Assembly: GCF_000265425.1 (NCBI RefSeq)
Contig: NC_018014.1
Span: forward strand, 4,836,001 to 4,900,000
DNA from: Terriglobus roseus DSM 18391
GTDB taxonomy: Bacteria > Acidobacteriota > Terriglobia > Terriglobales > Acidobacteriaceae
Direction of reading: 5' to 3'
Length of the DNA stretch: 64,000 nucleotides
Positions within the stretch are counted from its first letter, which is position 1. Each line of letters opens with the position of its first letter. Below the pieces are notes generated by a model. It was not told the origin of the DNA. It saw only the letters and a program-made list of their open reading frames with translations, and did not search any database. This document shows, one piece after another, positions 15,609-43,046 of the stretch. The translations under genes were made by a program, and so were the position numbers.

Positions 15609-15643
15609 ACTCTCCAACGCTTGTCATCCCGCAGCGCGTCTCC

Positions 15644-16236
15644 CGCGTTCCGCACCCAGCCGCAAATGCCAGGCGCCCGGAAGGGCACAGCTTCAGCTGT
15701 GCCAAGGACCTCCCCAACAAGACGGGCTTTAGCCCCTGAGGTTTAGCTTTCTTTCCAACAAACAACCCGAAAGCCTCCGCATGAAACGCTCTCGCGTTCC
15801 GCACCTAGCCGCAAATGCCAGGCGCCCGGAAGGGCACAGCTTCAGCTGTGCCAATGACCTCCCCAACAAGACGGGCTTTAGCCCCTGAGGTTTAGCTTTC
15901 TTTCCAACAACAACCGAAAGCCTCCGCATGAAACGCTCGCGCGCTCCGCGCCCAACCGCAAATGCTAGGCGCCCGGAAGGGCACAGCTTCAGCTGTGCCA
16001 AGAACCTCCCCAACAAGACAGGCTTTAGCCCCTGAGGTTTAGCTTTCTTTCCAACAAACAACCGAAAGCCTCTGCATGCAACGCTCTCGCGCTCCGCGCC
16101 CAACCACGAATGCCAGGCGCCCGGAAGGGCACAGCTTCAGCTGTGCCAAGGACCTCCCCAACAAGACGGGCTTTAGCCCCTGAGGTTTAGCTTTCTTTCC
16201 AACAAACAACCGAAAGCCTCTACACGCAACGCTCTT
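15644..16236. repeat. four tandem 148-bp double-hairpin repeats
   Basis: Four head-to-tail units have the GGAAGGGCAC landmark at 15679, 15828, 15975 and 16123, giving periods of 149, 147 and 148. Each unit holds the palindrome GGCACAGCT-TC-AGCTGTGCC and a smaller hairpin GGGCTTTAGCCC, then a shared GAGGTTTAGCTTTCTTTCC tail and AACGCTC/GCGCTCCGC spacer. Units are nearly identical over the core and vary in the spacers. Translated on the minus strand they give the phrase GLKPVLLG repeatedly, which I regard as spurious coding. Confidence 0.92.
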
Positions 16237-35518: not shown

Positions 35519-35801
35519 CTGTTCAGTTTAGCGAATGGCACAAAGTACGTATGCGCACAGGCTATGCAAGCGAGCTACAGTTGCGATAGAACGTTGTGCG
35601 CAGAACGCGGACAACAACTGCGGTGCTGTACGAAGAAGCAGCAGAACCAAATTCTGCTCGCACGGAAAACTTCTTCTTGCCATTGCACCATCTGCGGTGC
35701 ACCATATTGCTGTGTTGCAATCGTGTCATTCGTCTGCGATTGCCTCATGCGTCCGCTGGGTTTGTTGCATCCTACCTGCATCGGTAGCTGGAGGTTGAAC
35801 C
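35519..35801. other. intergenic region, probable promoter area
   Basis: About 280 bases without a gene separate the divergent hisS and the bipolar protein gene. The sequence is noticeably lower in GC than its surroundings (TTGTGCGC, AATTCTGCTC, AACTTCTTCTTGCC). I see the GGAGG ribosome-binding site near 35790 but no other defined element. Confidence 0.5.
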
Positions 35802-36875
35802 ATGATGTTCGATGAAGAGTTGAAGCTTTACGCCGCGCCCAAGGACGACTACGACGAGCCGGAGCTCGACGAAGAGGACGCCGACGAGGACTTCGACGAC
35901 GACGAAGACGAAGAGGACGAAGTCACCACGACCTCGGACGATGATGATGACGACGTCACACTGGATGACGAAGAAGACGACATCGACGATGAAGAAGATC
36001 GCGATGACGACACCGACGCCGAGGGCAGCGACAAGATGCTGCATAGCGAGCACCATGCGGAAGAGGCCACGCTGAAGGCGCCGCCCTCAAGCCAGGTGGA
36101 TCCTTATACCCCGGCTGACGAAGAGTCCGTCGTTCCTGAGCAGAGCGTCGCAGAGATTCCCGTTGCGACCACGCTGAGCAGCATTCCCACGCCGGCCAAG
36201 AAGGCAGCGCCCGCGAAGGCCACGGCCAAGAAGGCAGCGAAGAAGACGCCGCCACCTGCAGCGAAGAAGGCCGCCAAGAAGACGCCACCGCCTCCGCCGC
36301 CCGCGGCCAAGAAGGCTGCTAAGAAAACACCTCCGCCGCCTCCACCCGCAGCGAAGAAGGCAGCCAAGAAGACGCCGCCACCTCCGCCACCCGCGAAGAA
36401 GGCTGCGAAGAAAGTAGTCAAGACAGCAGCAAAGCCTGTGGTCACGAAGAAATCCGCACCAGCAAAGAAGACTGTCGCGAAGAAGACCTCCACGAAGAAA
36501 GCCGTCGTGACGAAGTCTCCCGCGAAGAAGTCCGGTGCAACGAAGTCTGCCACGAAACCGTCGGTGACGAAACGTGGTGGCAAGGTCGTCAGCAGCAAGG
36601 CGGCAAAATCCAACCAGCGAGGCAAAACTTTGGCAACGAAGAAAGCAGCTCCTGCAAAGAAGGCTGTGGCCAAGAAGGCCGTAGCAAAGAAGGCTGTGGC
36701 CAAGAAGGTCGTAGCCAAGAAGACAGTGGCCAAGAAGGCTCCTGCTAAGAAGACCGCAGCAAAGAAGACGTCTGCAAAGACGGCGACCAAGACGGCTTCG
36801 AAGACAGCTTCCAAGACGGCCACCAAGGCAACCAAGGCCACCGCGAAGAAGGCAACCAAGAAGGCCACCAAGTAA
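35802..36875 (+). CDS. bipolar acidic/lysine-rich (histone H1-like) protein
   Basis: The 357 residues divide sharply. Residues ~5-85 are almost pure Asp/Glu (DDYDEPELDEEDADED and DDDDDD runs), with a linker to ~130. Residues ~130-357 are a Lys/Ala/Pro/Thr tail with AKKAAKKTPPPPPPA repeated three or more times, then KKAVAKK-type repeats. The tail looks like histone H1-like DNA-binding tails of bacteria (AlgP, Hc1-like). The acidic head is unusual. A nucleoid or nucleic-acid-binding role is plausible. The gene is monocistronic and ends at a strong terminator. Confidence 0.75.
   Translation: MMFDEELKLYAAPKDDYDEPELDEEDADEDFDDDEDEEDEVTTTSDDDDDDVTLDDEEDDIDDEEDRDDDTDAEGSDKMLHSEHHAEEATLKAPPSSQVDPYTPADEESVVPEQSVAEIPVATTLSSIPTPAKKAAPAKATAKKAAKKTPPPAAKKAAKKTPPPPPPAAKKAAKKTPPPPPPAAKKAAKKTPPPPPPAKKAAKKVVKTAAKPVVTKKSAPAKKTVAKKTSTKKAVVTKSPAKKSGATKSATKPSVTKRGGKVVSSKAAKSNQRGKTLATKKAAPAKKAVAKKAVAKKAVAKKVVAKKTVAKKAPAKKTAAKKTSAKTATKTASKTASKTATKATKATAKKATKKATK
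36190..36420 (+). repeat. in-frame repeats coding KKAAKKTPPPPPP
   Basis: Three to four tandem copies of about 45 bases (GCNAAGAAGGC.. then CC(T/G)CC(A/G)CC-type runs) encode AAKKAAKKTPPPPPP. Synonymous changes between copies show that the protein pattern is being kept. Further downstream, 36640-36760 has a second set of AAGAAGGCNGT..GCCAAG copies. Confidence 0.7.
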
Positions 36876-36917
36876 TCCGGTTCTTCCCCAACCCGCACCA
36901 CTGAAGTTAAGGCAAGC

Positions 36918-36959
36918 AAAAAGGCCCGGCTCCTCATCCCTGAGGCTCCGGGCCTTTTT
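36918..36959 (+). terminator. strong terminator after the bipolar protein gene
   Basis: AAAAAGGCCCGG (36918-36929) pairs with CCGGGCCTTTTT (36948-36959), with an inner CCTCA/TGAGG pairing and a T5 tail. Confidence 0.9.
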
Positions 36960-37010
36960 GCGTCCCGAGGTCGATCACGCTGAAGAAGATTCAGTAGCAG
37001 GGCAGGCAAA

Positions 37011-39357: not shown

Positions 39358-42300
39358 TTAGAAGTTGAGCTTGAGTGCGAACTGGTAGAGTCGCGGCGTG
39401 TAGTTGGAGTCGGCATCGGTGACGGTACCGAAGGCTGAGTTGCCAAGCTGCACGTTGCCGCTGCCCTGCGTCAACTGATAGCTGGGTGTGTTGGAGATGT
39501 TGAAGCTCTCCGCACGGAACTGTACCTTGGTACGTTCCGTGACGCGGAAGTCCTTGAAGAGCGACAGATCGATGTGACGGAAGTGCGGACCGAAGACGTT
39601 ATTCCGTTGCGTGGTACCGATGGTGCCCAGCGGCTGCGGAACGAAAGCAGCCGTGTTGAAGTACCTGGCATTCGTGTGGGTGCCAAGATCCGGAGCGGCG
39701 ATCTGGTTGGGACGATCGGTACCGCCGTTGTTGATGGGAGTGGCGCGGTTGTTATACCCGGAGTCACCGGGCAGGGATGCAGAGCTGCTGTTGAGGATGG
39801 AGACGGGCTTGCCGCCCTGCCACACGGTGATGGTGTTGATCTGCCAGCCGCCCAGTGCGAACGTCTCAAAGGCGTTGCTGTAGTGATGGCCATCCAGGAT
39901 GGCGTAGTTGAGCGAGAGAGCAAAGCGGTTCTTGATGTTGTTCTCCGCAAGGCCGTAGTCGATCAGGCGAATGCGCGTCGGATCTGCGTTGTACGCGCCC
40001 TGAGCACCCTCCTGCGAGAAGCCAGTGACATCGTTTGCCGCGCGGCCCCAGGTGTAGTTGCCGTCAAACGACAGGCCGTGCACGAAGCGACGCTGGAAGG
40101 AGACCTGCAACGCGCTGTAGTTGGAGATGCCTTCGCTGATGATCCAGCTGACACCGCCCAGGTTCGGCAGGACCGCGTTGAGAGGACGTGCGCTGGACGT
40201 ACCGCCCTGGCTGATAGGGATGGTTGAGTTACCGGGCTTGGGAACGTTGATGTCGCTGATGGTCTGCGGCAGGTGCTGACCGATGTTGCCGACGTAACCG
40301 ATGGTCAGGACGTTGGCGCCAAACTGCTGCTGCACCTGCAGATTGAACTGCTGAATCATCGCGGAACGGAAGTTCGGGCTTTCCGCGGTGAAGGAGAGCG
40401 CCGGGCTGTTGATCGTCTGCGCGGCGGGCAAGGGCAGGCCCGCGTCAAACGTCGGGATTGCACCGGCAACCGTGGCGCAATCCGGGTTGGACGCACTGGC
40501 TGCGATGCCCTGCTGTCTCTGGATCTGGTAACCGACGCTGGAGACGCAGTTGGGGGAGTAGACGGAGACGAACGGAGCATTCTTCAGATCGGCGTTGGAG
40601 GTGTAGTTGCCGGGGAAGAAGCTGAGTCCATAGCCACCGCGCAGCACGGTCTTCGGCGCCGCCGAGAAGGAGAAGCCGACACGCGGTGCGAAGTTGCTGT
40701 GATCGACACCGATGCCCGCGTGGCCGTCGACACCGTTGACACCCGGAACCTTCAGAGCCTGACCTACGTTGGTCGAGTTCAGCGTAAGAGCCTGGTTGAA
40801 GTCGAAGTTCGAGATGTGACCATGTGCCTCAGTAAACGGGGTGAACAAGTCGTAGCGCAGACCGTAGACCACGGTCAGGTTTGGCATCGCCTTCCAACTG
40901 TCCTGCACGAAGAAGCTCGGCTCATAGGTGCGGTAGTCGGGCGTGTTGAGGTTGTAATTACGGCCTTCCGAGGAAAAGGCGCCAACCAGTGAGCTTGCCA
41001 GCTGGTTATCCTGCTGTTTCTTCTGGCGGGCGGTCGCATCAGGGATCTGTGTGGAGGACACGTTGTCCGAGATCAGGTTGAAGCCATACTGACCACCCGG
41101 AAAGGCGCTCTGCAGATTACGAGCCTGGCGACGGATGTAGCTCGCGCCAAACTTCAGGTTGTGGTTCCCCCTGGTCCAGTTGACGATGGCCGCGTACTGA
41201 AAGGTGTTGTCGATGTCCTGCAAGGGAACGTAGGCGCCGTCACCGATATCGGCGAAGGGACCGAAGGAGATGGGCGGCAGCACATTGCTGGTGGCGTTGA
41301 AGTTCATGTTCGGCCCGAAGCCGACCTGCGTTGCCGCGTTCTTACCGTAGTTGAGCGGCAACGACAGGTTGTTGATGCGGGTGAAGCCCGCCTTCAGATC
41401 GATCAGCAGGTTCTGCGTGAAGATGTGGGTGTAGTCGAAGGCGTACTGCTGCGCTGCATCGCTCGCCGGACCGGCGAAGATGTAACGTCCACCGGAGATG
41501 TCCAGACCGTTCCGAGTGCCCAGTGCCGGGGGAATGGTGCTGTCCACCTTGTTGTAGGTGTAACGGCCAAAGAAGAGATTGCTGGCGTTGAAGTGATGGT
41601 CGATGCGCACATCGAAGAGGTTGCTGGTGGCCGTCTTGCTGGGGCTGACAATATAGTTATTCGTCAGACCGGGCTGGTTGGGTGCGGGAAAGAGCTTCAG
41701 ATAAGCCAGTGCGATCGGGTCGATCGCACGACCGGCCGTGCCCGCACCATTCGCTACCAGCGCCTGGGGCGAACCGCCATTGATGCCGTTGATGTTGTTG
41801 TACTCGTCGAGGGTGGGAACGGTGCTCTTGTAGGTGACGCCGATGACCTGGCGCAGGCCCTCGTAGTCACCGAAGAAGAAGGTCTTGTCTTTAAAGATGG
41901 GTCCGCCGATGCTGCCGCCGAACTGATTCTGACGTAATACCGGCTTGCGGCCGGTGTTCTGGGAGAAGGTGCGGGCATCGAAGATGTCGTTGCGGAAGTA
42001 CTCGTAGACGCTGCCGTGGAACTGGTTCCCGCCACTCTTCGTGACGATGTTGATGACGCCGCCGGCGGTGCGTCCGGCCTCTGGCGCGTAGCTGTTGGTC
42101 TGGACGCTGATCTCCTGCATGCCTTCAACGTTCGGACGGACGCCGCTGGTACCGATGACGCGTTCGTTGTTGTCAAAGCCGTCGATGGTGAAGTTGTTCA
42201 GCGTGTCGTCCTGGCCGTTGACTGAGATGGAGGAGGACTGGCGACGATCGTCAGGACGTCCACCCGAGGTGAGACCGTTACCGGGACCCTCGTTCGCGCC

Positions 42301-42825
42301 GGGGACGAGCTGCACCAACTGGACGTAGTTACGGCCGTTGAGCGGCAGATCCTGCACGGCCTGTGCCGTGACCGTCGTGCTGACGGTCGCATTCTCCGAC
42401 TGAAGCAGTGGAGTCTGCGCTTCGACGCTGATGGTTTCGTTGATGTTTCCGAGCTGCAGGTGGCCGTCAGAACGGGCGCGATCGCCTGCCTCGATCCCGA
42501 GGTCGGCGGTGGATGAGGTCTTGAAGCCGGGTGCTGTGATGGTGACGCTGTAATGGCCGGGCTTGAGGTTGCTGACGACATAGTCGCCGCTGGAGCTCGA
42601 GGTAACGGTGCGGGTCTCGTTGGTCGCCAGGTTCTTGACCTCGACCTGGGCATTCCCGACGACAGCGTTGCTTGCGTCCGTGACAGTCCCGACGATGTCT
42701 GCGGTAGTGAGTTGAGCGTGGGCCGCGGTGGCACCGCCCAACAACATGAGAGTTACGGCCGCACAGGAGAGGCTTTGGGTCGCGCGCGTCTGGCTGCTCC
42801 GAAAGATGTTCGAGTAACGATTCAT
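39358..42825 (-). CDS. Oar-like TonB-dependent outer-membrane receptor
   Basis: The 1155-residue protein has a signal peptide (to about residue 37). A carboxypeptidase-regulatory-like Ig domain follows (about residues 38-118, VGTVTDASNAVVGNAQVEVKN and YSVTITAPGFKT). A TonB plug is next (ENATVSTTVTAQAVQDLPLNGRNYVQLVQLVPG, GFDNNERVIGTSGVRPNVEGMQEISVQTN), then a large beta-barrel ending in YQFALKLNF with terminal Phe. This is the acidobacterial Oar/CarA family for uptake of large carbon substrates. The ATG at 42825 precedes the signal; 42867 adds a tail. Its terminator is strong. Confidence 0.93.
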   Translation of the reverse strand: MNRYSNIFRSSQTRATQSLSCAAVTLMLLGGATAAHAQLTTADIVGTVTDASNAVVGNAQVEVKNLATNETRTVTSSSSGDYVVSNLKPGHYSVTITAPGFKTSSTADLGIEAGDRARSDGHLQLGNINETISVEAQTPLLQSENATVSTTVTAQAVQDLPLNGRNYVQLVQLVPGANEGPGNGLTSGGRPDDRRQSSSISVNGQDDTLNNFTIDGFDNNERVIGTSGVRPNVEGMQEISVQTNSYAPEAGRTAGGVINIVTKSGGNQFHGSVYEYFRNDIFDARTFSQNTGRKPVLRQNQFGGSIGGPIFKDKTFFFGDYEGLRQVIGVTYKSTVPTLDEYNNINGINGGSPQALVANGAGTAGRAIDPIALAYLKLFPAPNQPGLTNNYIVSPSKTATSNLFDVRIDHHFNASNLFFGRYTYNKVDSTIPPALGTRNGLDISGGRYIFAGPASDAAQQYAFDYTHIFTQNLLIDLKAGFTRINNLSLPLNYGKNAATQVGFGPNMNFNATSNVLPPISFGPFADIGDGAYVPLQDIDNTFQYAAIVNWTRGNHNLKFGASYIRRQARNLQSAFPGGQYGFNLISDNVSSTQIPDATARQKKQQDNQLASSLVGAFSSEGRNYNLNTPDYRTYEPSFFVQDSWKAMPNLTVVYGLRYDLFTPFTEAHGHISNFDFNQALTLNSTNVGQALKVPGVNGVDGHAGIGVDHSNFAPRVGFSFSAAPKTVLRGGYGLSFFPGNYTSNADLKNAPFVSVYSPNCVSSVGYQIQRQQGIAASASNPDCATVAGAIPTFDAGLPLPAAQTINSPALSFTAESPNFRSAMIQQFNLQVQQQFGANVLTIGYVGNIGQHLPQTISDINVPKPGNSTIPISQGGTSSARPLNAVLPNLGGVSWIISEGISNYSALQVSFQRRFVHGLSFDGNYTWGRAANDVTGFSQEGAQGAYNADPTRIRLIDYGLAENNIKNRFALSLNYAILDGHHYSNAFETFALGGWQINTITVWQGGKPVSILNSSSASLPGDSGYNNRATPINNGGTDRPNQIAAPDLGTHTNARYFNTAAFVPQPLGTIGTTQRNNVFGPHFRHIDLSLFKDFRVTERTKVQFRAESFNISNTPSYQLTQGSGNVQLGNSAFGTVTDADSNYTPRLYQFALKLNF

Positions 42826-43046
42826 AGTGATCCTTGCCGTTCTGGCTTTGTTGGTTACTCCCGTCACTTCGCGATCAGTCGCCGCGCGATGAAGGGACTA
42901 AGTAATGACCAGCGGACTCTATTGAGCAAGGAGAAGAACTGTTCAGGTCTAACGGGTATGGACGGAGAGGTAAACCGGGAAAATGGCCGAAAAATGCATA
43001 GGTAAAGAGGAGGTTAAGAGGTTGTCAATCGGTGCAGGAAGCGCCT

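Follow-up and report, generated by a model that had tools for sequence, protein, structure and literature searches.

The 64,000-nucleotide window analysed here, which spans 4.84-4.90 Mb of the single-contig 5.23 Mb genome of Terriglobus roseus DSM 18391, encodes a charge-bipolar protein in which an acidic N-terminal head is joined to a basic Lys/Ala/Pro tail, and profile searches place two-part relatives of this protein in most of the sampled genomes of the family Acidobacteriaceae. Our favoured reading, to which we give a probability of about 0.5, is that it is an H1-like polycation, probably nucleoid-associated, with a built-in acidic arm for regulation and docking. The features on which this reading draws are collected in Table 1.

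Table 1. The gene, the parts of its product and the signals around it, in window coordinates.
Feature	Position	Strand	Basis or remark
Promoter-like pair TTGCCA - 17 nt - CACCAT	35677..35705	+	upstream alignment, 17 genus loci
Ribosome-binding site GGAGG, 7 nt ahead of the ATG	35790..35794	+	sequence
Gene, charge-bipolar protein, 357 aa	35802..36875	+	ATG to TAA, without internal stop
Acidic head, residues 1-118, net charge -51	35802..36155	+	head profile searches with shuffled control
Start box MMFDEELKLYAAPKDDY, residues 1-17	35802..35852	+	alignments A1 and A3: M1 and A11 invariant, K8 nearly so
Conserved linker KMLHSEHHAEEATL..PSSQVDPYTPA, residues ~78-118	36033..36155	+	alignment A1
Lys/Ala/Pro tail, residues 130-357	36189..36872	+	sub-threshold match to PF07382 HC2
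Tandem repeat, 45 bp, encoding AAKKAAKKTPPPPPP	36249..36412	+	Tandem Repeats Finder
Non-repeat box within the tail, RGGK...SNQRGKTLATKKA, residues 258-282	36573..36647	+	alignment A1
Further tandem repeat	~36648-36784	n/a	Tandem Repeats Finder
Terminator hairpin and T run	36916..36961	+	fold z-score -5.5

The two halves of the protein differ sharply in composition. Residues 119-357 carry a net charge of +74 and there is no Asp or Glu at all from residue 129 to the C-terminus. The 228 residues from 130 onwards include 72 Lys, 60 Ala, 29 Pro and 30 Thr, so that the broad trait of bacterial H1-like proteins, a long low-complexity tail of Lys, Ala and Pro, is present. The first-pass annotation had described this region as lysine-rich with repeats, which is borne out by a repeat block made up of AKKAAKKTPPP and three copies of AAKKAAKKTPPPPPP; its description of residues ~5-85 as nearly all acidic was too strong (Asp and Glu account for 47 of these 81 residues, 58%), but the two-pole design that it pointed to stands. 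The charge patterning value is 0.169, compared with 0.064 +/- 0.009 in 1000 shuffles of the same residues (shuffle maximum 0.094), and because it exceeds every one of the shuffles the segregation of charge is far above chance. Between species the repeats differ in the lengths of the proline runs (closest relative) and in a 10-residue unit (L015 compared with L016). Elsewhere in the window, at 15640-16235, there is a separate repeat with a unit of 148 bp in 4.0 copies (94% matches).

Judged by its ribosome-binding site, promoter-like pair and terminator hairpin, the gene is real and separately transcribed. The promoter-like pair, which lies ~100 nt upstream and has CATTCT as its second site in the L015-L019 group, was not flagged by a scan for consensus promoters; we infer a promoter here because the pair is conserved across the genus. 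The same terminator hairpin is found at 16 of the 17 genus loci, the locus L007 ending at a contig edge, and the L010 row ends inside the second arm of the hairpin. Two further conserved non-coding elements are evident at most of the genus loci. Between the promoter-like pair and the start codon lies TTGCATCCTACC (window 35765-35776), and the hairpin is itself flanked by AAGGCAAG before and GCGTC after (window 36909-36964); these flanks seem better conserved than a terminator needs, and the flank was found once within the window.

The divergent upstream neighbour is hisS, with lpxA and fabZ beyond it, and the convergent downstream neighbour is an AhpC/TSA peroxiredoxin. The peroxiredoxin is convergent and close by at 29 of 44 loci (flanks of up to ~4-6 kb) and is present at 8 of 20 more distant loci (2 kb flanks); hisS adjoins the gene at 3 of the 44, in close relatives only. 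Further along the window, at 39358-42867, is a gene for a large outer membrane protein resembling TonB-dependent receptors, with a carboxypeptidase-regulatory-like domain.

A search with the single sequence matched all 19 genomes of the genus and 20 of 61 genomes overall, and the named contigs that carry relatives include those of Granulicella sp. dw_53 and an Edaphobacter MAG. The start of the gene is readable at 17 genus loci (L013 and L014 lack it, their sequence beginning at a contig edge), and alignment A1 comprises 15 of these, without L007 (contig end) and L016 (near-identical to L015). Profiles built from the head alone reached further across the family, matching 59 of 200 genomes with A3, 81 of 200 genomes, spread over 31 of 79 genera, with A5, and 132 of 200 genomes with A8; the union of the stepwise refined head profiles covers 177 of the 200. 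A control head profile with shuffled columns, made from 17 of 21 shuffled rows and realigned, matched 0 of 120 genomes, a sample smaller than that for the true profile, and an empty result carries little weight unless a known positive accompanies it. Since the shuffled profile finds nothing, the head is recognised by the order of its motifs and not by acidity alone, and homology by composition only was rejected as the source of the family-wide signal (0/120 compared with 132/200 for the true profile). In phylum-wide samples, A3 matched 32 of 396 genomes and the deeper profile A8 matched 8 of 317, every match falling inside the family; class-wide, A7 matched 20 of 299, of which 3 are weak matches (E 1.4e-4 to 8.6e-4) in another family, f5. 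There was thus no clear match beyond the family among these 396 and 317 phylum and 299 class genomes, samples that also include genomes of the family itself.

Heads of the window type carry KLYA, and those of a short-tailed group carry TLYGR. The two are linked by profile chaining and a common layout, not by common neighbours, and may have converged. The join runs in part through L121, on the TLYGR side, which was reached by A3 at E 3.0e-5; A5 leaves out most of the short-tailed group but includes L121 as one row. Across genera the head follows a rough order of Met, a few residues with Asp or Glu, [KT]-L-Y-[AG], an acidic run with aromatics and EEEEE, the last often followed by a Ser/Thr-acidic stretch. 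Within A1 (15 genus sequences) the invariant residues are M1, A11, L80, H85, E87, Y102 and P104 in the head and linker, and R258, G274, A278, T279, K280, K281 and A282 in the tail box. A regular expression for the tail box is satisfied at 53 of 89 loci, the short-tailed group being among those without it.

This set of 89 loci excludes the fragments L007, L013, L014 and L022, the loci L052, L114 and L190 (cut by contig ends), L031 and L032 (whose proteins are the same as those of L006 and L010) and duplicate entries. Head and tail occur together in a single frame at all 89, and the reading frame in the window has no internal stop; an accidental fusion or frameshift of two genes was rejected on these grounds. 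The same count, together with the order-dependent head motif, answers the concern of the first-pass annotation that the head might prove to be an unrelated fused product: it did not. Purifying selection acts on both halves. In six species pairs dN/dS is 0.04-0.27 for the head and 0.10-0.22 for the tail (0.042 and 0.132 with the closest relative); the head value is clearly below that of the tail in four pairs, about equal in one (0.099 vs 0.103) and above it in one (L015-L018, 0.27 vs 0.22). Because this selection is seen across species, we take the gene to be coding and not a spurious reading frame over a repeat.

The head has a net negative charge at each of the 89 loci, with values from -12 to -113, and the tail a net positive one, from +26 to +85. 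The boundary was set at the minimum of cumulative charge, so the opposite signs are partly built in, but the large size of the two charges is not. The whole protein is net positive at 86 of the 89 loci, with a median of +25. Between genera, mean head and tail charge are correlated (rho -0.49, 37 groups, p 0.002, a statistic that ignores kinship), which is what charge compensation predicts, while within the genus they are uncorrelated (rho +0.10, 16 loci). The net-negative members of the genus, L006 (-23), L010 (-20) and L012 (-47), are hard to reconcile with simple masking of the tail. These same three have far longer acidic heads (net -79 to -113), so that the size of the head can outgrow the tail. 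In the genus g42 (L185, L200) the tail departs from the AKKA pattern seen at other loci and consists almost wholly of lysine, with aspartates at intervals (KKKKDKKKKKKDKKK).

Structure prediction agrees with an intrinsically disordered protein. The AlphaFold2 model of the window protein (15 sequences) has a mean pLDDT of 48.5 with no residue at 70 or above, and that of a relative's head (30 sequences) has a mean of 61.3 with 9 residues at 70-90, although low-complexity models from few sequences often score low with or without a true fold. The only helix in the latter model, of 5 residues, lies at the position of the start box. Both halves fall in the disordered zone of a charge-hydropathy analysis, and the head has no sequence match in the PDB at E <= 0.1.

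No Pfam or NCBIfam model matched the window protein above its curated cut-off. HC2 (PF07382) was the sole match in a Pfam scan at E <= 0.1 and covers the tail only, with 29.3 bits against a cut-off of 40; the NCBIfam models NF038052 (Hc2) and NF038053 (Burkholderia H1-like) scored 15.9 against 135 and 31.3 bits against 80, respectively. A Pfam scan of 30 heads returned four weak matches, each in a single member and with E of at least 0.017, which we took as chance. Membership in Hc2, the Burkholderia H1-like family, AlgP/PhaF, CarD and delta was rejected, the defining domain or score being absent. The same genome encodes a second Lys-rich protein (C1:4694083-4694499, L028/L225), without an acidic head and ending in RKYSPAAGKQVGTEMREMKKGTLKSGRGGKKVTNPKQAIAIGLSEARKAGKK, which was the only HC2-type match in that genome search (31.1 bits, below 40) and which we presume to resemble DUF6496 proteins. 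Hc2 and the Burkholderia H1-like protein have a Lys/Ala-rich repetitive tail, as here, and the acidic head is not covered by the match; the number of repeats in Hc2 is described as variable (PMC2848022).

Other systems offer partial comparisons. CarD of Myxococcus xanthus is reported to contain a highly acidic stretch of ~50 residues beside a basic, disordered DNA-binding tail; histone H1, or the C-terminal region of H1, can substitute for that tail (PMC8156234). The joining of such a head and tail, which had been called unusual at first pass, is indeed so, but it has this precedent of an acidic stretch adjoining a basic tail. CarD differs in that it binds RNA polymerase through a folded domain and carries AT-hooks (RGRP), and in the window protein the acidic part forms the N-terminus. 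Neither of these CarD elements is present: the CarD_CdnL_TRCF domain was not found by the Pfam scan at E <= 0.1, and the three arginines of the window protein sit in EDRDD, TKRGGK and NQRGKT and not in AT-hooks. RNA polymerase delta carries a lysine tract and an acidic tail. In Bacillus it has a disordered region whose long-range contacts affect transcription (PMC9136928), and the likeness lies in this functionally important disorder, which is delta's feature; delta differs in its folded N-terminal domain, for which the protein described here has no Pfam match and no predicted fold, and in the order of its charges and the taxa in which it occurs. In Pseudomonas, AlgP and PhaF end in a DNA-binding, H1-like domain of Lys, Pro and Ala (PMC9239181), which resembles the tail described here. 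Their N-termini, a predicted helical region in AlgP and a granule-binding helix with an oligomerisation domain in PhaF (PMC9239181), contrast with the acidic and predicted disordered N-terminus of the window protein, in which no helical or phasin-type domain was found (no convincing Pfam match for the head and no domain in the AlphaFold2 models). In eukaryotes, an acidic block of ASXL1 suppresses a basic, condensation-prone segment in cis (PMC13042807), and H1 with its chaperone prothymosin alpha, acting in trans, forms a complex that stays disordered yet is tight and fast (PMC7661507). Both set an acidic block against a basic disordered segment, a likeness in mechanism only. Relative to the known bacterial H1-like tails, what is new is an acidic arm attached in cis, with CarD, delta, ASXL1 and H1-prothymosin as partial precedents. 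The protein was absent from the open-licence PMC literature searched on H1-like, histone-like and nucleoid-associated proteins of Acidobacteria and Terriglobus, and in the main text of a Granulicella omics paper (PMC7074687) the terms nucleoid, chromatin, lysine and DNA-binding never occur.

The alternative that we weigh most seriously, although we consider it improbable, is that the protein is an accessory factor of transcription or translation akin to CarD, delta or CrsL, with the head as the functional part that would bind RNA polymerase, HU or ribosomal proteins and the tail as a nonspecific nucleic-acid anchor. The head is clearly under tighter constraint than the tail in four of the six species pairs and bears the motif that defines the family, and the net charge of the tails ranges from 26 to 85; the exchange of the CarD tail for that of H1 and the long-range contacts of delta are further points in its favour, as is the disordered CrsL, which folds upon CarD (PMC12709188). 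However, the head lacks a folded RNA-polymerase-binding domain or a convincing Pfam match, and the candidate partner is only hypothetical. Distinctly less likely is an organiser of polyphosphate granules whose tail would bind polyphosphate and DNA as in AlgP, with acidic-serine stretches and lysine stretches as targets for polyphosphate attachment. The KPAA-tailed AlgP is located on polyphosphate granules, whose spacing it sets (PMC9239181), a loose pattern for acidic-Ser/Thr-acidic stretches matches the heads of 61 of the 89 loci and the genome encodes a polyphosphate kinase, but this enzyme is common and proves nothing, the N-terminus of AlgP is predicted to be helical and not acidic, and the head would repel polyphosphate, itself a polyanion.

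DNA mimicry by the head had also been raised at first pass, and mimicry of the folded type, in which the head strips or decoys DNA-binding proteins, would suit a long acidic stretch and has bacterial parallels among acidic DNA-mimic proteins such as Bnr1 (PMC9060813). It is disfavoured, and in our estimate very improbable, because no fold is predicted for either a relative's head alone or the full-length protein (low-complexity models being weak in this respect); a fused polycation would, moreover, neutralise the head. Drift of a repeat-driven, low-complexity reading frame without selected function is scarcely credible and is contradicted by the data: the tail does carry tandem DNA repeats and varies freely in length, but dN/dS is well below 1 in both halves, the promoter-like pair and terminator are conserved, the peroxiredoxin recurs as convergent neighbour and the shuffled control profile was negative.

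The H1-like reading is favoured over the accessory factor and the polyphosphate organiser on the strength of the tail likeness and of AlgP, ASXL1, H1-prothymosin and CarD. It also draws on the constant pairing of head and tail, the selection on both halves, the order-dependent head motif, the predicted disorder and the charge correlation between genera. We counted against it the net-negative members of the genus, the lack of such a correlation within the genus, the chance that the deepest group is convergent and the three HU-family genes of the genome. The HU-family genes, with the polyphosphate kinase, leave room for all three readings alike. According to the H1-like reading, the protein would be cytosolic, intrinsically disordered and charge-bipolar, and its Lys/Ala/Pro tail may bind polyanions (DNA, RNA or polyphosphate), as H1-like tails elsewhere suggest. 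The head would fold back onto the tail, the two forming a polyelectrolyte complex without fixed structure, which might lower the affinity of the tail, keep binding reversible and gate condensation, while the start box and the aromatics of the head could dock on a basic protein partner, e.g. HU, RNA polymerase or the ribosome. Masking of the tail or formation of condensates by the head is consistent with this anatomy.

Bacterial H1-like tails have so far mostly been regarded as plain polycations; here dozens of genera retain an acidic arm beside such a tail, under constraint about equal to that on the tail or stronger. We tentatively raise the wider possibility that this is a core chromatin-like protein of the Acidobacteriaceae, a self-chaperoned H1 whose conserved acidic arm would chaperone the lysine tail in cis, as a histone chaperone does, and would also dock onto the transcription or HU machinery, such that one disordered protein may set both the condensation and the exchangeability of the nucleoid (or of RNA or polyphosphate bodies). 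The family provides a compact natural test of whether the charge-block self-regulation of eukaryotic chromatin factors also occurs in bacteria. The protein, widely conserved and as yet without a name, is also a tractable subject in a group of soil bacteria that ranks among the most abundant and is among the least understood.
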